Source: Bacteroidales bacterium (lineage in GTDB: Bacteria > Bacteroidota > Bacteroidia > Bacteroidales > UBA1556). From it: a stretch of 64,000 nt of DNA. Of the stretch, positions 8,863-18,801 are shown piece after piece. The notes under the pieces are model-generated. The model was not told the DNA's origin and searched no databases. It saw only the letters and a list, made by a program, of their open reading frames with translations. The translations under genes and the position numbers were made by a program. The DNA lies in the NCBI GenBank assembly GCA_023146135.1, contig JAGLCR010000002.1:1-64000 (forward strand). The letters run 5' to 3'. How positions within the stretch are numbered: the first letter of the stretch is position 1; each line of letters opens with the position of its first letter.

Positions 8863-8910
8863 TTTATTATTTAAGTTAATATTTATTATTTAAGTTAATA
8901 TTTATTATTT
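8863..8910. repeat. Perfect 19-bp tandem repeat, about 2.5 copies (tttattatttaagttaata)
   Basis: Copies 8863-8881, 8882-8900, partial 8901-8910; immediately upstream of the DUF2202 gene. Confidence 0.95.
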
Positions 8911-9000: not shown

Positions 9001-9417
9001 TTAGATTTTAAGCCATTCCAAAGTATGCCAAAAAAAGTACTTTGAGCCCACAACCTCAATATCTTTTTCGCGTATTTCGGTTATTTTCAAATTGAAGATC
9101 ATTCCTTTCTCTGGCCCGTACATTTTTCCATTAATCCATTGTTTTTCGTCCATATCAAACTCCAAGCCATGAATGATAAGCATGCCTAAAAGTGGAGTGC
9201 TATGCTCAGAATCATCAGGGTTTTTAGTGTCAGTTGTTTGACCGTTTTGGTATCCATTCAATGCAATGATTTTACCAAAGTATTTATTTCCTTCTTTGTA
9301 TATTTCGATATCTAAATCGTTGGGTAAATGATATTTCCCTATAATATCGTCGCCTACTTGGGCATGTGCCAAGCTTGTGAAGAAAAGAAGTGCTAATAAT
9401 ATTTTTAGATGCTTCAT
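9001..9417 (-). CDS. DUF2147-family secreted protein
   Basis: Signal peptide; DDIIGKYHLPNDLDIEIYKEGNKYFGKIIAL...LLGMLIIHGLEFD pattern. Confidence 0.75.
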   Translation of the reverse strand: MKHLKILLALLFFTSLAHAQVGDDIIGKYHLPNDLDIEIYKEGNKYFGKIIALNGYQNGQTTDTKNPDDSEHSTPLLGMLIIHGLEFDMDEKQWINGKMYGPEKGMIFNLKITEIREKDIEVVGSKYFFWHTLEWLKI

Positions 9418-9423
9418 AGAGGA

Positions 9424-10683
9424 TTAAAAATTATATTTTATCTTGGTGTAAATCATAGAATTGTCGCCATATTGGCCAAATTGACCTTCGGTATCTCCCA
9501 CAAAAATATTTCCTCCAAGAAGAATGGAAAAGCTATCGTCAAAATCGTATGAAATCTTTGGCCGAATTAGTGCATCACCATTGGTAAGTCCCATATAGGA
9601 GAACAGTTCGAGATGAAGTGTTTCTCGGAGCATATCATATCGAGCCAAGAAAGTAGCCATATTATTGATTTCGTTTTCAGTCATTAAATCGTTATGGTCG
9701 ATAATATACTTTTGGATAAATTGACCACTTAGTTTAACTGGTCCAATATTAAAATCAAGCCCAACTACATAGTTCAAATAGTCCTTTTCAATTATTGCAT
9801 CTACTGCTGTGGGGTCGGTTGTTTGAAAGTGCTTTCCATTATAGTAAGCTGCTTCACCACGTAGAATAAAGCCTTTTATCTCGGTGCTAAAAGAACCGCC
9901 AAACACTGTAAGTCTATGATGTTTTGGAGTTATATTCAGTCCAATAAGTCCAGGTTTTGGAGGTACTGTGCTTGTGTCCATTCCAAAAACTTTTTCCACA
10001 TGCATTGTTGGATTATCATCCCAGGTATAGCCCCCCATCAAATCAAAGTCAATAACTGAAGTCATGGCCGAGTATTTTAAGAAAAACTCAGAGTTCTCCA
10101 AGGAAGGGTCTATTTCGCTTTGAGTCCAATCAAAGGTAGGTGTTGCAGGAAAATCAGGTTGTATATACCAAATGGAGCCTGCTGCAGGTCGTTTTGTGGG
10201 TGTAAATTGAGGAATAAAAATTGCTTCAATAGTGCTATTTCCGATATAATAATCGAGCTTAGCAGCAATCACTCCAATGCGTATTTCATCAAAATCGGGA
10301 AGTAAAAATTCCGTTAGGTTCAATGGAGATACGATATCGGTAATAAAAACGCCATCCGCCTTTCCCCATACTATTTGCTGTTGTCCTATTCGTAAATCAA
10401 AATTCTCAAAGTAGAGGTCCATATAAATCTCTCGCATGCGAAAATCGAAACTGTCTGAGTTGAACATAAAGATCATAGGATTAGCTTTAAATGCCACCTT
10501 TTCGCCTCGCTTTTCAAAGTTCAAGTTTAAGGTTTGTTGCACTATACCAAAACTTCCATTATCGACCAATATTCCTTCGTAGGTTCTTGCAAAACCAGAT
10601 AATTCAATGTTTTGTGCGTTTGTATATAGGCCAATTATTAGCATCAAAGCCGTAAATAATCCTTTTATTTTTATTGTTTTCAT
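9424..10683 (-). CDS. DUF1302-like outer-membrane beta-barrel protein
   Basis: Signal peptide; LRIGQQQIVWGKADGVFITDIVSPLNLTEFLLPD resembles DUF1302-type barrels. Confidence 0.65.
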   Translation of the reverse strand: MKTIKIKGLFTALMLIIGLYTNAQNIELSGFARTYEGILVDNGSFGIVQQTLNLNFEKRGEKVAFKANPMIFMFNSDSFDFRMREIYMDLYFENFDLRIGQQQIVWGKADGVFITDIVSPLNLTEFLLPDFDEIRIGVIAAKLDYYIGNSTIEAIFIPQFTPTKRPAAGSIWYIQPDFPATPTFDWTQSEIDPSLENSEFFLKYSAMTSVIDFDLMGGYTWDDNPTMHVEKVFGMDTSTVPPKPGLIGLNITPKHHRLTVFGGSFSTEIKGFILRGEAAYYNGKHFQTTDPTAVDAIIEKDYLNYVVGLDFNIGPVKLSGQFIQKYIIDHNDLMTENEINNMATFLARYDMLRETLHLELFSYMGLTNGDALIRPKISYDFDDSFSILLGGNIFVGDTEGQFGQYGDNSMIYTKIKYNF

Positions 10684-11598: not shown

Positions 11599-12372
11599 TT
11601 ATATTCCGCGAGTCATCATACGTTCCGAAAATTTAGAAGCTGAAACGCCCGTATTGATTTTTATGTTTGAGAGTTTTATTGTTGTTTTATGGTTCTTTTG
11701 TACATTCTTCATCTCGGAATGTGTAATCACCCAAAAGCCTTCAATTTTTTCCACTTTCTTAATGGTCAGTACTTTTAATAGCTCACTGTCTTCATCATAA
11801 AATTCTTTTTTCATTCCCACAAAAATATCCTTTCGAATCCATGTAATGGTTTTCGAATACATATAATCCTCATCTTTCGAAACCGACTCCACCACATAGC
11901 AAGCGTGACCATCAATAGTTTCTTCACGAAGGAGCTTATGCACATCAGCATCGAGTTTGCGATCACCTAAATCATCGTAAGTGAAATCAGACCCCATGAA
12001 ATAATCGCTCTTACTATCACTTGAAATACGCTTTACTTTTTTTAAAGCGGGGAGATAAATCCACTGATCGTCCGATTTATCACTATCATAGGACCAATTC
12101 ATAAATGAAGTATTCTTAATATCGGCAGGCGTCATAAAAAACATGATACTTTTTTCAACATCTCCAAAATTTTTGAAGTATTGTTGAATTTTTCGAACTC
12201 GTGTTTGACCACTTTTATTGGTTAAGGTCATGTTTAGCGTAGATGTTACATCTTCACCAGTTGGTAAATTATAGACTTTTTCTACAATTTCGTTAGCTGT
12301 TATTTGTGCTTTGGCACTGAAACCGAATACCATTATTATGGCTAGGGCTATTAATTTTGTTGTTGTTTTCAT
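11599..12372 (-). CDS. Outer membrane lipoprotein-sorting (LolA-like) protein
   Basis: Signal peptide; QWIYLPALKKVKRISSDSKSDYFMGSDFTYDDL is typical of this family. Confidence 0.9.
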   Translation of the reverse strand: MKTTTKLIALAIIMVFGFSAKAQITANEIVEKVYNLPTGEDVTSTLNMTLTNKSGQTRVRKIQQYFKNFGDVEKSIMFFMTPADIKNTSFMNWSYDSDKSDDQWIYLPALKKVKRISSDSKSDYFMGSDFTYDDLGDRKLDADVHKLLREETIDGHACYVVESVSKDEDYMYSKTITWIRKDIFVGMKKEFYDEDSELLKVLTIKKVEKIEGFWVITHSEMKNVQKNHKTTIKLSNIKINTGVSASKFSERMMTRGI

Positions 12373-12380
12373 AGTTATTT

Positions 12381-14690
12381 TTATTTTGTTTTCTTCTTAA
12401 AATACACATTGCTTACATATAGTAATACCATCATAATTGTAAGTGTTCCTATTAGGCTAGTAAACATATTTAATGATACCAAAGCTCCGAGTTCCCGGTT
12501 AGGAGGAAATACGGAAAACATCAAAACCAAGAAACCAGCGATTACTACAATGGCATTATAAATTATAGCACGTCCTGAGTGAGCCATCGTTTTTTGCGCA
12601 GCCACCATCTTATCGTCAGTGTTAGCAGCATTGGTTCTATATTGTTCCAAGAAATGCACAGCATAGTCAATTCCTATACCAATGGCGATACTTGACAATA
12701 GGGCTGTGGTGGTATTTAATGGAATTCCTAGAAATCCCATGATTCCAAAACTTATCATCGCTGTAAGAATAATTGGTACCGAAGCGATAAAGCCAATTTT
12801 GATGTTCTTAAACATGGCTGATATCAATACGATAATTAGAATTAGGGAAAGAACCAAGCTCATGATTTGCCCCTCCAAAATTAAATCGGTAAATACCAGT
12901 CCTTTATAGCCACTACCGGCATAGTTTAATGTGATTCCTAGTTTCTTAAAGTCGTCCTCATAGTTATGGATAATGGCCAAAGTAGCGTCCATGGCTTTGG
13001 AGTTATCACTCTTAAGTTGGAAGGTTATATTGGCTTTTTCGTAATTATAGTCCACTACTTTATTCAAATTTTCCGGGTCACCCGACATTTCGTAGAGTAA
13101 AAGGTATTGGGCTATCATTTCTTTACTATCAGGAATAGTATTGAACTCTTCCTTATCAGCATTCATTACTTTATTCATCCGGTTGATATAGTCGGCAAGG
13201 GAAAAAGTGTTTCCAACCACTTGAAGTTGTCCGTTTACATCTTTCTGCATTTTGTCTACCAAACGCAGCACCTCAGGTTGCTTGAATGCATCTTTCGTTC
13301 CATTGGCATCTAAAATCAAGTTTAATGTGGAGGTGCCTCCAAAATGTTCATTTATAAACTTGTCCGTTTGAACGATATCACTTTCTTTCTCAAATTTCTC
13401 TAAGAAACTTGAGTTTATCCATATTTCTTGCATTCCTATTAGGGAAGCTACCACAATTAGTGCTGATCCTAAAATGGAAACATACTTGTATTTGATAATC
13501 CAGCTAGCAAAATTATTGGCTAGTTTGGAGTGTGAATGGCCTTCTTTATCTTCCTCAAGATTTACTGGTTTTGCCTTTGGCAGACCAAAAAGCATAATGG
13601 CTGCAGGTAAAAAAACTAAAGAGAAAACCATGGCCATCATTACACCAAAGGCTGTGAAAAGTCCAAAATATTTGACTGGGTAAACCTGGGAAGTTAACAA
13701 GGAAATAAATCCAACAGCAGTAGTTACTGATGTCATTGCTACAGGTTTCCACATATGCTTAATCATATCGATGGTGGCTTGTCTTCTTGTTGCATTTGGG
13801 AAGTGATTTATAAATACTTGCAAATGACTGTAAAGGTGTATGCCATCGGCAACCCCAATGGCAATAAGCATTACGGGAATCATGGTTGAAACTGCATATA
13901 CTGGGATACCTGTAATGGCCATCAATCCAAATGTCCAAATGGTGGAAAAAAACACTACCCCAAGTGTGATTAATGTTCCTTTGAAACTTCGTAATGTGAT
14001 AAATAAGACCACAAAGATTATTAGGATAACAATGGGCACCATTTTTTTCATGTCAGCTGGTCCTAGAAGAGCCATTGTGCCTTCCACAATTGGTCGGCCT
14101 GCCACATAGATTTTTATATCATCCGTTTCGGAAGCTTCTGCAGTTTCCAATATTTCGTTATAAAACTTTTGGGTAAAAACATCATCACCTATTTCTGCGA
14201 TAATTACGGTTACGGTTTCGTCGGTCGAAACTAAGCGCCCAAAAATCATTTCGTTGTTACGAACATTATTTTGAAGATTATCAAGTTTATCGGCTGTTTT
14301 TGGTACCCGTTTGAAAAATGCTTTCACATCCATACCATCTTCAGTGCCTACAATATTATCAGCTGTGTAAAGTGAAGTTACATCGCTTTTTTGAATTTCA
14401 TCAAACTTTTGAAAACGCTTAGTTAGCTTTTTTAAAGTATCTAAAGTTTCGGTATTGTAAATGCCATTTTTATTTTCTATGGCGATGATGATTCCATCTT
14501 GAATTCCAAACCAACTTTCTGCTGAATCGCTATAAATAAATGCAGGATGATCATGCGGCATGTATTTATCTAGATTGGTTTCCATGCGCGTGTTCTCTTT
14601 CATTTCTAGAATGAAGAATGCGGAAATCGCAATAATAATGACCATGGTGAGCCATTTGTAATCTAAAAGTTTAATAATAAACTGTGTCAT
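12381..14690 (-). CDS. MMPL/RND-family transporter
   Basis: 769 aa, two TM blocks with large extracytoplasmic loops, IGVADGIHLYSHL and IGIGIDYAVHFLEQYR motifs. Confidence 0.93.
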   Translation of the reverse strand: MTQFIIKLLDYKWLTMVIIIAISAFFILEMKENTRMETNLDKYMPHDHPAFIYSDSAESWFGIQDGIIIAIENKNGIYNTETLDTLKKLTKRFQKFDEIQKSDVTSLYTADNIVGTEDGMDVKAFFKRVPKTADKLDNLQNNVRNNEMIFGRLVSTDETVTVIIAEIGDDVFTQKFYNEILETAEASETDDIKIYVAGRPIVEGTMALLGPADMKKMVPIVILIIFVVLFITLRSFKGTLITLGVVFFSTIWTFGLMAITGIPVYAVSTMIPVMLIAIGVADGIHLYSHLQVFINHFPNATRRQATIDMIKHMWKPVAMTSVTTAVGFISLLTSQVYPVKYFGLFTAFGVMMAMVFSLVFLPAAIMLFGLPKAKPVNLEEDKEGHSHSKLANNFASWIIKYKYVSILGSALIVVASLIGMQEIWINSSFLEKFEKESDIVQTDKFINEHFGGTSTLNLILDANGTKDAFKQPEVLRLVDKMQKDVNGQLQVVGNTFSLADYINRMNKVMNADKEEFNTIPDSKEMIAQYLLLYEMSGDPENLNKVVDYNYEKANITFQLKSDNSKAMDATLAIIHNYEDDFKKLGITLNYAGSGYKGLVFTDLILEGQIMSLVLSLILIIVLISAMFKNIKIGFIASVPIILTAMISFGIMGFLGIPLNTTTALLSSIAIGIGIDYAVHFLEQYRTNAANTDDKMVAAQKTMAHSGRAIIYNAIVVIAGFLVLMFSVFPPNRELGALVSLNMFTSLIGTLTIMMVLLYVSNVYFKKKTK

Positions 14691-14738: not shown

Positions 14739-14758
14739 GTTAGTTAATATTCACTAAC
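14739..14758. promoter_or_regulatory. Near-perfect palindrome, candidate TetR operator 1
   Basis: GTTAGTTAATATTCACTAAC; symmetric except positions 7/14; abuts a minus-strand TACTTTTG -7-like element (14758-14765). Confidence 0.7.
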
Positions 14759-14826
14759 AAAAGTACATCTATTTTTATTACAAGCTCTTATTAAATTATA
14801 AAAAGTGTTAAATATCATTTAGCTTC

Positions 14827-16194
14827 TTAAAAAGCGACTCTTACTTCTAATCGTGCCATAATAAAATCATTTGGTATTGCATTGGAGCTCACATGACTTA
14901 GTATTCCAGTCATTTTTATATGATTATTAAATAATTTTATTCCAACTTCTAGGTCTTGCTCATTGGTTTTTGCAAGTTCAATTTGCCCGACAGCCTTTAC
15001 TGCAACGTGAAGTTTTAACTTCCCAGGAAAACGGTGCTTGAGTGCTACTTGCCAAATAGGGAAATCGGGAGCGTCCATACGCATAACTTCACCTATAAAA
15101 AGGTTACTAAAAAGAGGTTGAAAAATAGCATTATTATCAATATTGTATTTACCAATATATGCTACCGACAGTTTAGTGTTTGAGGCATTTCCCCAAGTTT
15201 TACTATTCCCAAGCTTTGCAATGTAAACAATAGCATCATTGTCTTTCATGTTTTGATAAACTCCTCCTGTTTGCATAAAAAAGCCAAAAGGTAAGCCAAT
15301 ATCTACTAATAGTCCTGTATAGAATTTATTATCTGGTATATATTTTTCAGAGCCAAATTCATCATAAAAAATCAAGCCAATGTTTTTAATTACAAAGAAG
15401 GGTTTTGCTTTATTATTATCCTCAGTATCGTTTTCTTCTGAAAACTCCTCTGAACTTCCAAATTCATTGAAATCATGATTTACATGAAATTCATCCGTAG
15501 TTTCAAATTCATCTTCTGTTTTATTTTCAACGGTTTTAGTAAAATGGGGATCCCAATTAATTACAAATCCTGTAAGGTTTGTTTCACCAAGCGACTTTCC
15601 AATTTTCTCTGTATAATCAGGGTTTAGAATGCCGTATAAATGTCTATTTGCACAAAATTTTCCCATTCGTGCGAAATTCTGATTTACACTTCCCAAGCGA
15701 AAATTTAGACTAAAAGCTCCAATTGAATGATCAACACTTAAGCCAACCATTCTTTCATCAATTAAAAAGAAGTCACCTAAACGTGTTTCATGGAGGCCTA
15801 TTTTTATTTTGGTATTATCAGAGGAGTATGAATAGAATAATTGTCTAATTCCAATATGACGACTACTGCTCATTGTATCATCCACAAATTCAGAATTTTT
15901 CCAATTTTTATATCCACCTTCAATATAGAAATGATTTTTTTTCTTAAACTGAAAATCTAATGCACCAAGCATCATACCTCCATTTAGCATTGTTTTTTCC
16001 TTTTGCGGAAAAGGGCTTGTCATTAACCCTGGAGCCATTGTACCTTCTATAGCCCATGATAGTGCCCCGTCCTTTTTGAATGAAGTTAAATGTGCGCCAA
16101 GCATACTTCGACAGTCCATTTGTGCTTTTGCTGTTGTACTTGTGATAAGAAACAATCCAAAAACTATTGTAAGGATTTGTAAAGTTCGTTTCAT
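14827..16194 (-). CDS. Hypothetical outer-membrane protein with acidic insert
   Basis: Signal peptide; beta-rich; C-terminal MARLEVRVAF; internal FNEFGSSEEFSEENDTEDNN acidic stretch. Confidence 0.7.
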   Translation of the reverse strand: MKRTLQILTIVFGLFLITSTTAKAQMDCRSMLGAHLTSFKKDGALSWAIEGTMAPGLMTSPFPQKEKTMLNGGMMLGALDFQFKKKNHFYIEGGYKNWKNSEFVDDTMSSSRHIGIRQLFYSYSSDNTKIKIGLHETRLGDFFLIDERMVGLSVDHSIGAFSLNFRLGSVNQNFARMGKFCANRHLYGILNPDYTEKIGKSLGETNLTGFVINWDPHFTKTVENKTEDEFETTDEFHVNHDFNEFGSSEEFSEENDTEDNNKAKPFFVIKNIGLIFYDEFGSEKYIPDNKFYTGLLVDIGLPFGFFMQTGGVYQNMKDNDAIVYIAKLGNSKTWGNASNTKLSVAYIGKYNIDNNAIFQPLFSNLFIGEVMRMDAPDFPIWQVALKHRFPGKLKLHVAVKAVGQIELAKTNEQDLEVGIKLFNNHIKMTGILSHVSSNAIPNDFIMARLEVRVAF

Positions 16195-16199
16195 ATGGC

Positions 16200-17315
16200 C
16201 TAATTTTTAAGATTAATTTTTTTTATTCCTTTTAGTACGATTTGTGACTGGTGTTTTTTACCTTTTCTAAAAGGTTGAATACTTTTTATTTTGCAATCAC
16301 TCATACAGTCTCCACACATTATACACTCTTGATTATCTAGGTGTGACGTTTTATCATCACGTGTAATTGCATTTATTTGACATGATGTATTACATGTTTT
16401 ACATCCTGCACAACTAGTGTTGTCAATGCCTAGTATAGCAGCACCTGGTAGTTTTGTAACCCAACCAAAGATTAGTCCTGCTGGGCAAACTATTTTACAA
16501 AAAGGCCTATGAATAAATAATGAACTTAATAATAGTACACCAAGTAGAATATACCCTGTAATATTTGGAGAATATAGATTAAATATTACTTTGAAAGGTC
16601 CTATTTTACTCCATTCAATAGACTGGGTGATAATTAATTGAATTAATATTGCCGCTAGTAAAACATAGCGAATAATACGCATTGTCTTTTGAGCTTTCTC
16701 TGTTTGAAGGATTTTTATTTTGCCAATATACAGAAACTCTTGAACAGCTCCTAAGTAGCATATCCAACCGCAAAACACTTTGCCTTGAAAGTAAGTGAGT
16801 ATGACTACTCCTAGGAAAAGAACAATTGCTGTCCATTTCCATGAGACTCCAATTGCAAATAATACGGTGTTTTGAAAGCTAGAAATAATACCAGGACCAC
16901 CACGATAAAATCCTAATATAACAACAGCAGCGAGAAGAAAAACAGGTCTTAATTTTTTTGTTTTTTCATTACGAACAAAAAGCCCAGCAATAAATGTTGC
17001 AAAGAGAATACCAATGGCCCAGTTGAAACGGTTCCAATTTGTTTTTGGGTTAATATCTTCAGTATCGCTAACTTCATCAAATTCTGAAAACTCATCAGAC
17101 TCGAAATCATTTTCGCCAAATTCGTTATCTGATGATTTTTCCTCCTCAAAATCATCTGAAGACGTTTTGTTATTTTCAAATTCTTCTTCAAAATCAGAGT
17201 CATTAGCTAATTGCGTATCTTCCTGAATTTTAATTAATACTGAATTAGTTGCATTAACAATTAAAGAACTAAAGACAAATGATAGTATAAAAATTAATCG
17301 ATAGAAAGTCATCAT
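16200..17315 (-). CDS. Membrane 4Fe-4S (NapH/NosR-like poly-ferredoxin) protein with acidic N-terminal segment
   Basis: CAGCKTCNTSCQ and CIMCGDCMSDCK ferredoxin motifs; FCGWICYLGAVQEF and CKIVCPAGL membrane cysteine motifs; start refined to MTFYRL to avoid overlap. Confidence 0.8.
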   Translation of the reverse strand: MMTFYRLIFILSFVFSSLIVNATNSVLIKIQEDTQLANDSDFEEEFENNKTSSDDFEEEKSSDNEFGENDFESDEFSEFDEVSDTEDINPKTNWNRFNWAIGILFATFIAGLFVRNEKTKKLRPVFLLAAVVILGFYRGGPGIISSFQNTVLFAIGVSWKWTAIVLFLGVVILTYFQGKVFCGWICYLGAVQEFLYIGKIKILQTEKAQKTMRIIRYVLLAAILIQLIITQSIEWSKIGPFKVIFNLYSPNITGYILLGVLLLSSLFIHRPFCKIVCPAGLIFGWVTKLPGAAILGIDNTSCAGCKTCNTSCQINAITRDDKTSHLDNQECIMCGDCMSDCKIKSIQPFRKGKKHQSQIVLKGIKKINLKN

Positions 17316-17326
17316 AGTATTTTGTT

Positions 17327-17704
17327 TTATTCCATTTCTAATTTCATGGACCCAAAGCCCCCATCCTTTTCGCATTCTCGCACAGCAGTTAAGTTTATTT
17401 TCTTTGCTTCGGTTTCAGTTACAACAATCATCAGTTTCCTTTCCCAATCATTGGCTGATTTTTGCTTCCAAGGTGTAGATTTTAGCACTTTCATTCCATT
17501 TAGTTTAAACTTGGTTTTCTTCATTGCCACAGGGCATGATCTGTGCGTAAGCTTTACTTCTACAAGTATAACTATAGTGTCACCGGCTTTATATTTTTCT
17601 TTTTCACCTTTTAGGATTTTAAATTCAATTTCACATGCTTTTGTTTGGTTAGTTGGTGCAAAAGCAAGAAATAGTCCTAATAATATTGGAAGAATCCATT
17701 TCAT
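17327..17704 (-). CDS. Small secreted hypothetical protein
   Basis: Start refined to MKWILPILLGLFLAFA signal peptide; precedes the 4Fe-4S gene. Confidence 0.7.
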   Translation of the reverse strand: MKWILPILLGLFLAFAPTNQTKACEIEFKILKGEKEKYKAGDTIVILVEVKLTHRSCPVAMKKTKFKLNGMKVLKSTPWKQKSANDWERKLMIVVTETEAKKINLTAVRECEKDGGFGSMKLEME

Positions 17705-17743
17705 AATTAAAGTATACTTTATATTTTTATTTATTTTCAATCG

Positions 17744-17763
17744 CATAGTTAATATTAACTAAC
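17744..17763. promoter_or_regulatory. Palindrome, candidate TetR operator 2
   Basis: CATAGTTAATATTAACTAAC, 17/20 identical to operator 1; 40 bp upstream of the refined start at 17704. Confidence 0.65.
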
Positions 17764-17809
17764 TTTTCTTACCTAATAAAACCCGTATATCACGGGTTCA
17801 ATATTGTAT

Positions 17810-18148
17810 TTATAAGATGATACCTTTTTTAGTTGGTCTAGGAGTTTTGCACACCAAAACGCGAAGATTTTTATCGGTATTATTTGCTATATAATGTACA
17901 ATGTCTTTAGGATTGTCAACTACAGCGTCTGGGCCAACTGTTTCTGTTTCATCGCCAATTGTTATACTGGCTTCACCTTCGAGCACATAAATAAAAACAT
18001 CTACAGGTGTAATATGTGGTTTTAATGCTTCGCCAGGTTTTAATAACATATGTGCCATTTGTGCCTCGGGGTGGTCATATATAAATCGCACGTCAATTTT
18101 GTGTGCAGTGTCTTTTATTGGAGTGTCTTTTACTTTTGTAATTTTCAT
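17810..18148 (-). CDS. Cupin-domain protein
   Basis: MLLKPGEALKPHITPVDVFIYVLEGEASITIGDETETVGPDAVV cupin motif. Confidence 0.88.
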   Translation of the reverse strand: MKITKVKDTPIKDTAHKIDVRFIYDHPEAQMAHMLLKPGEALKPHITPVDVFIYVLEGEASITIGDETETVGPDAVVDNPKDIVHYIANNTDKNLRVLVCKTPRPTKKGIIL

Positions 18149-18168
18149 ATCGTTCCTTATATTAAATG

Positions 18169-18753
18169 CTAGTTTTTTGCAAGTATTAGTTTTAGATTAT
18201 TGATTAATTCACCACCTTCTTTTACCATATTTCCATGGTAGTCCTTTAAGTCCCATTGCTTAACTCTAAATCGAAGGCTTCCCATGACGATAAGGGCAAG
18301 GGTGTTGCCATCAATATCAGTTCTTATTTCATTTCTTTCTTGACCTGCTGTAATAATTCCTTCAACGGTTTTTTCATTAAAGTCCATTATTTCAACAATC
18401 TTATTTTTGAGAACAGCTTCATTTCTGAAAATTTCCTCCGAAAAAACTACTGAGATAAAATATGGTGTTTGAGAAAATATATCAATGATACGAGAAAACA
18501 TAAATTCAATTTTATCTACTGCAGGGCCCTGATTTTCTTCCATCATATCTCCCATAAAAGTTGCCATTTCTTTAAAATTATCTAGAATAGAAATTAGGAT
18601 TGCTGTTTTACTTTCGAAATGGCGATAAATGGCAGGCTCAGAAATGCCAATTTCTTTTGATAAATTCTTAATTGTTAGTCCTTGAATACCTTTGGTTCCA
18701 ATTATTTCAATTGATTTGTCAATTATTTCCGTTTGTCTTTCCGTTAGGACCAT
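18169..18753 (-). CDS. TetR/AcrR-family transcriptional regulator
   Basis: N-terminal HTH: IIDKSIEIIGTKGIQGLTIKNLSKEIGISEPAIYRHFESKTAIL. Confidence 0.95.
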   Translation of the reverse strand: MVLTERQTEIIDKSIEIIGTKGIQGLTIKNLSKEIGISEPAIYRHFESKTAILISILDNFKEMATFMGDMMEENQGPAVDKIEFMFSRIIDIFSQTPYFISVVFSEEIFRNEAVLKNKIVEIMDFNEKTVEGIITAGQERNEIRTDIDGNTLALIVMGSLRFRVKQWDLKDYHGNMVKEGGELINNLKLILAKN

Positions 18754-18781
18754 TGTTATTATAAATTAATTTGACGACAAA

Positions 18782-18801
18782 GATAGTTAATATTCACTAA
18801 C
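18782..18801. promoter_or_regulatory. Palindrome, candidate TetR operator 3 (autoregulatory)
   Basis: GATAGTTAATATTCACTAAC, 19/20 identical to operator 1; overlaps minus-strand -7-like TATCTTTG (18778-18785) upstream of tetR. Confidence 0.75.

Follow-up and report, generated by a model that had tools for sequence, protein, structure and literature searches.

Near-identical palindromes as predicted operators of one TetR regulator and its envelope export genes in Bacteroidales

We analyzed 64,000 nucleotides (nt) of DNA from a Bacteroidales bacterium (NCBI GenBank assembly GCA_023146135.1, contig JAGLCR010000002.1, positions 1 to 64,000; hereafter the window), in which three near-identical 20-bp palindromes accompany the gene of a TetR-family regulator. 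Judging from sequence comparison, the palindromes are very probably the switches by which this single TetR controls its own gene, an export operon and a redox-membrane operon, and they are kept in many marine and sediment Bacteroidales. In the mechanism we propose, TetR as a dimeric repressor would bind the palindrome GTTAGTKAATATTMACTAAC and repress three promoters, namely those of tetR-cupin, of an operon for a secreted protein, an Fe-S protein and a beta-barrel, and of the MMPL-LolA3-like-OMPLA-DUF1302-DUF2147 export operon. An accumulating hydrophobic ligand, probably bearing an acyl chain, would release the repressor; the derepressed pump and carrier would then transport the ligand compound or a damaged lipid through the envelope, and the phospholipase would meanwhile alter the lipids of the outer membrane. 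We give the ligand and transport part of this explanation roughly even chances.

The initial annotation of the window had named the three palindromes, and all of them lie exactly where it placed them (Table 1). A window scan allowing up to 3 mismatches returned six strand matches, which are these three sites and no others, against 0.02 expected from shuffled sequences. In the genome (2.28 Mb scanned, 84 contigs, 70% complete), exact matches to WTAGTKAATATTMACTAW were confined to the three window sites. The next-best site had one mismatch (C56:23486), and sites with two mismatches occurred at control level, so that the palindrome is not scattered genome-wide. The site at C56:23486 was left uncounted, its adjoining genes having no evident link to the TetR system. 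In the segment 8225-8910, which holds a gene for a DUF2202 (ferritin-like) protein, weaker matches upstream of this gene (near 8872 and 8891) belong to a short AT-rich tandem repeat with a 19-bp unit (AATAATAAATATTAACTTA, about 2.5 copies) and were rejected as operators.

Each copy lies upstream of a separate minus-strand gene set, as had been proposed, with one correction to a gene start. Copy 1 sits 48 bp upstream of the MMPL start codon (14690) and directly follows TACTTTTG. Copy 3 sits 28 bp upstream of the tetR start codon (18753), and the TATC of the -7 element TATCTTTG is the 3' end of the palindrome. Copy 2 overlaps the earliest in-frame ATG (17746) in the open reading frame for the small secreted protein. 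The real start is likely the next ATG, at 17704, which opens a signal peptide beginning MKWILPILLG; with the start moved there, copy 2 precedes the gene by about 40 bp.

We compared operators and targets across 295 genomes sampled from the order Bacteroidales, 68 of which carry TetR orthologs, and across loci taken from TetR genomes and their genus relatives (40) and, as named loci, from the species genome collection (80). The TetR is also present in the cultured Draconibacterium sediminis and Mariniphaga sediminis. A gene order recurs, in which tetR is followed often by the cupin gene, sometimes by the secreted/Fe-S/barrel cassette, and then by MMPL-LolA-OMPLA-DUF1302-DUF2147, and the palindrome recurs between the units of this order. 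Counting distinct loci, and accepting sites with 2 mismatches or fewer in the 250 bp upstream, we found an operator ahead of tetR in 58/104, MMPL in 52/66, a second TetR-like gene in 8/14 and the secreted protein in 2/4. Genes inside the operons had none (LolA 0/50, cupin 0/48, OMPLA 0/46, DUF1302 0/44, RND 0/28 and MFP 0/25; 0/241 in total), and shuffled upstream regions gave no operator match. The real motif occurred in 110 of 168 upstream regions, whereas the best of 500 scrambled palindromes with the same half-site composition reached 13 (mean 0.3). Across the 295 genomes, the motif was present in 45/68 that bear TetR versus 15/227 that do not (odds ratio 28, Fisher p=3e-23, a value that overstates independence, as related genomes are included; the matches span dozens of families). 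A reversed control pattern gave an odds ratio of 2.3. The expected co-occurrence of palindrome and gene set in relatives was found, and these counts strongly support the claim that one TetR would control three gene sets through the palindromes. What the comparison brings out is the operator, its target genes, an autoregulatory layout and the coupling of operator to regulator. Contigs of metagenome-assembled genomes labelled Kiritimatiellae or Aminicenantes (L121, L142, L159) also carry a TetR-MMPL cassette, which may reflect mis-binning or transfer.

The promoter geometry was examined with the Bacteroidota -7 element, TAnnTTTG. Of 62 operators in tetR promoters, 51 touch this element, some overlapping it from the 5' side and others standing immediately after it; autorepression predicts such placement, and the geometry fits autorepression of tetR. 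For MMPL genes the median distance from the end of the operator to the gene is 20 nt (about 50 loci), and 15 of 51 operators stand directly 3' of a terminator-like hairpin, compared with 0 in shuffles. In the MMPL upstream regions of about 50 loci the promoter was not located and no -7 element was evident. The initial annotation had read contact with a -7 element, at copies 3 and 1, as expected of repressor operators; this holds for tetR promoters across the family, but not for MMPL promoters in general. A sigma-70 promoter scan gave no signal above shuffles, the sigma-70 model being uninformative for Bacteroidota.

Several points weigh against our interpretation. Only 3 of 51 MMPL operators touch a recognisable -7 element, window copy 1 among them. 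At about 44% of tetR genes the 250 bp upstream hold no operator with 2 mismatches or fewer. In one genome of the same genus (G010), an operator precedes the Fe-S cassette and no TetR was found in the fragmented assembly. Direct binding of TetR to the operator, and repression rather than activation, are predicted. As for the ligand, the similarity of TetR to FadR is distant.

This similarity was examined by profile and structure searches. Besides the N-terminal domain, the regulator matches the TetR-like C domain PF08359 (24.7 bits, cut-off 21). Among NCBIfam models it scores best with Bacillus FadR (YsiA; NF053878), at 57.3 bits against a cut-off of 200, and Bacillus FadR proteins are its nearest PDB structures, aligned over nearly the full length. 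FadR controls fatty-acid degradation in Bacillus. The ligand of TetR is likely to be lipid-like, because these are its nearest solved relatives. The cupin gene adjoins tetR in 44 of 110 distinct relatives and is probably cotranscribed with it.

Table 1. Candidate operators and genes of the proposed regulon (window positions).
Feature	Positions	Strand	Basis or remark
Operator 3	18782-18801	-	Palindrome of the tetR-cupin promoter; overlaps the -7 element
Operator 2	17744-17763	-	Palindrome 5' of the secreted protein/Fe-S/beta-barrel operon, just after a terminator-like hairpin
Operator 1	14739-14758	-	Palindrome 5' of the MMPL export operon
TetR-family regulator, FadR/YsiA-like, 194 amino acids	18169-18753	-	PF00440, 44.1 bits (cut-off 24)
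Small cupin protein, 112 amino acids	17810-18148	-	PF07883, 50.5 bits
Small secreted protein	17327-17704	-	Start corrected from 17746; no known domain
NapH/NosR-like polytopic 4Fe-4S protein	16200-17375	-	Resembles PF12801 (Fer4_5) and the napH_ subfamily, below cut-off
Predicted outer-membrane beta-barrel protein, 455 amino acids	14827-16194	-	Acidic DEF repeats; mostly beta strands in model
MMPL/RND transporter, HAE3-like	12381-14690	-	PF03176, 146 bits; TIGR00921, 245.5 bits
LolA-like periplasmic carrier	11599-12372	-	PF17131, 218.6 bits
OMPLA-fold outer-membrane phospholipase, 298 amino acids	10701-11597	-	Foldseek match; invariant HHSNGQ and N146
DUF1302 outer-membrane protein	9424-10683	-	PF06980, 59 bits
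DUF2147 secreted protein	9001-9417	-	PF09917, 68.7 bits

Family and fold searches bore out the gene calls made earlier for the MMPL, LolA-like, OMPLA-like, DUF1302, DUF2147 and 4Fe-4S proteins. For the MMPL protein, the HAE3 model TIGR00921 was by far the best and aligned end to end, and its score missed the cut-off of 351.9; the transporter is thus predicted to work like an HAE3 pump, yet it is no strict member of that family. The OMPLA-like protein had no Pfam match at E 0.01, and a PDB profile search by sequence alone found nothing for its family; a fold search was needed. With the structure model, Foldseek ranks 1-8 were all E. coli or Salmonella OMPLA structures (probability 1.00, TM about 0.53-0.65), so that the protein falls within the 12-strand barrel fold of OMPLA. 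H129-H-S131-N-G (within HHSNGQ) and N146 were invariant in 17 relatives; we take these residues to correspond to the His-Ser-Asn site of OMPLA, with N146 as the candidate equivalent of N156. The LolA-like carrier also matches PF07044 (DUF1329; 48.7 bits, cut-off 23.1). Its closest solved relative is LolA3 of Porphyromonas gingivalis (crystal structure, PDB 9TP6; PMC13103446), with E=3.7e-64, which places it beside the Bacteroidota LolA3 proteins (PGN0947, Fjoh_0605). LolA3 showed no gliding or secretion phenotype in F. johnsoniae and has no assigned role; in the window, the carrier gene accompanies that of an MMPL pump behind a predicted TetR operator. We infer that the substrate is an envelope lipid or hydrophobic molecule; the class of the ligand and the direction of transport are likewise predictions.

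The cassette behind operator 2 is an optional part of the locus. It lies next to tetR in the window and in L048, L050, L061 and L146, and lies behind DUF1302 in L187, while in L185 and L186 it is unlinked to tetR but has an operator of its own; equivalents of operator 2 were found in L048, L050, L185 and L186. In another genome (G093), the cassette and tetR are on different contigs, and the cassette still has an operator with 1 mismatch. The N-terminal region of the Fe-S protein is acidic, with DEF repeats, and ortholog matches begin at about residue 24; its start is perhaps at 17315. The 455-residue barrel protein had no Pfam, NCBIfam or PDB match, and its structure model, mostly beta strands, is of low confidence and too poor for use. 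The two adjoining proteins are otherwise unrelated but have DEF/EEF acidic repeats in common (14827-17375), which suggests a shared metal- or partner-binding tract.

The exporter under the operator is exchangeable. In a large TetR clade, a TolC-MFP-AcrB pump replaces the MMPL-LolA-DUF1302 module, and the operator, cupin gene and OMPLA-like gene are often kept; such pump operons stand with TetR in, for example, L071, L072 and L084, and none adjoins the TetR of the window. The exporter type changed at least 3 times on the TetR tree as counted by starred branches, and 5 times by parsimony. In these RND-type loci tetR has an operator, as does in some of them the second TetR-like gene. Only 2 of 27 TolC genes have one directly 5', which would mean that the pump is transcribed by read-through from a promoter further upstream. 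That second, divergent TetR-like gene (L071:8962-9537 and relatives) has no Pfam TetR match and in many of these loci is flanked by the cupin and TolC genes; no match to it was found in the window. Operators were also found ahead of other operons. In genome G184 two of them precede an operon with CTP_transf and CDP-alcohol phosphatidyltransferase genes, and a nucleotide-cyclase operon has an operator upstream in G184, G286 and apparently G082 (G082:C32:139531, judged by coordinates). A set of DUF6134, TauE, CTP_transf, NAD reductase and CDP-alcohol phosphatidyltransferase genes, followed by a TonB-type receptor, is likewise preceded by two operators in L060:1694-6834. The nucleotide-cyclase operon (L195:722-8810, L200:1-6298 and L078:1-7660) encodes a cyclase of class III, an HD protein that carries the Pycsar effector domain PycTM, an Omp85 protein and a protein with a pyruvate-kinase barrel. 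More speculatively, and in our view less likely than not, the regulator-operator pair might be the constant element in a regulon for envelope-lipid stress that is widespread in Bacteroidales. Its output might be modular, with MMPL-LolA3-DUF1302 or TolC-MFP-AcrB as exporter, both usually with the OMPLA phospholipase, and Fe-S redox, lipid-synthesis and nucleotide-cyclase modules as options.

The initial annotation had not recognised the gene combination as a described system. A full-text search found no paper with the operator sequence, and targeted literature searches (subscription papers being outside their coverage) found no description of the regulon, so that the regulon itself is undescribed in the literature searched; three known systems are nevertheless close in composition or logic. 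In P. gingivalis, PG1175-1181 groups a TetR (PG1181), an MMPL protein (PG1180) and a LolA-like protein (PG1179) in one operon, with PG1178-1181 the part closest to our locus. According to the accessible text of PMC10434189, these genes, which include ABC ATPases, are up 13- to 136-fold on iron depletion, and that text does not report the cupin, OMPLA, DUF1302 or Fe-S cassette; the comparison is one of gene composition. AmeABCD of Castellaniella defragrans is an HAE3-type RND system that lowers monoterpene toxicity (PMC6394551). Its pump works with DUF1302 outer-membrane and LolA-superfamily DUF1329 partners, both of which the window has (PF06980, PF07044/PF17131). It differs in having AmeC (COG4447), a domain absent from the ten window proteins scanned, and the accessible part of that source reports neither OMPLA nor DUF2147, nor a neighbouring TetR with the window operator. 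In Bacteroides fragilis, BmeR5 represses the tripartite pump BmeABC5 (PMC4790292). As described, this is a Bacteroidales TetR adjoining a TolC-MFP-RND pump, as in the RND-type loci; in the window the exporter is of the MMPL-LolA type and a tripartite pump is absent. The precedents of AmeABCD and BmeR5 make efflux the leading role for our system. TetR repressors that control an envelope exporter are well known; new here are the gene composition, the exchange of exporters and the pairing of LolA3 with an MMPL pump.

The purpose of the regulon could also be read in other ways. TetR might be a FadR-type sensor of the fatty-acid state inside the cell (acyl-CoA) and adjust membrane lipid traffic in a housekeeping role, with no response to toxic compounds. 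The FadR matches, the outer-membrane phospholipase in the operon and the operators ahead of the phosphatidyltransferase operon in G184 agree with this, but the operator targets examined include no beta-oxidation genes, and replacement of the exporter by an AcrB-type pump for drugs or hydrophobes in a whole TetR clade points to efflux; we regard such a housekeeping role as rather doubtful. It also seems unlikely that the regulon, though real, serves defence against nitrosative, iron or redox stress, with the Fe-S protein as its core and lipid export as a side effect. The Fe-S cassette is missing near tetR in most relatives, the exporter module is present in most loci, and the nearest structures of TetR are acyl-CoA and drug sensors. 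This stress reading is kept alive by the iron induction of PG1175-1181 and by a title, cited in PMC10101095, that ties PG1181 to nitric oxide stress resistance. The NapH/NosR-like protein, apparently co-regulated in the window, is in line with it.

The identity of the DNA-binding protein is a separate matter. The second TetR-like gene has its own operator in some genomes, and G010 has an operator with no TetR detected; either would be expected if a protein other than the adjacent TetR used the palindrome. However, operator presence tracks the window-type TetR, the site lies in the tetR promoter in most relatives, and the window has no match to the second TetR, which makes this very improbable. 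Chance resemblance or a dispersed repeat, suggested by the AT-richness of both palindrome and genome, is rejected with near certainty by the window expectation, the three exact genome sites and a placement conserved across many families.

Predicted control by one TetR through shared palindromes gives LolA3, DUF1302, DUF2147 and the Bacteroidota OMPLA-like barrel, most of which have no assigned role, a testable function. With so precise an operator consensus, the regulon can be mapped in cultured strains such as Draconibacterium sediminis and Mariniphaga sediminis. Regulator and operator persist where the exporter under their control is replaced. If the modular regulon is real, the orphan LolA3 would be a shuttle of lipids or hydrophobes for an HAE3 pump and not a lipoprotein carrier.

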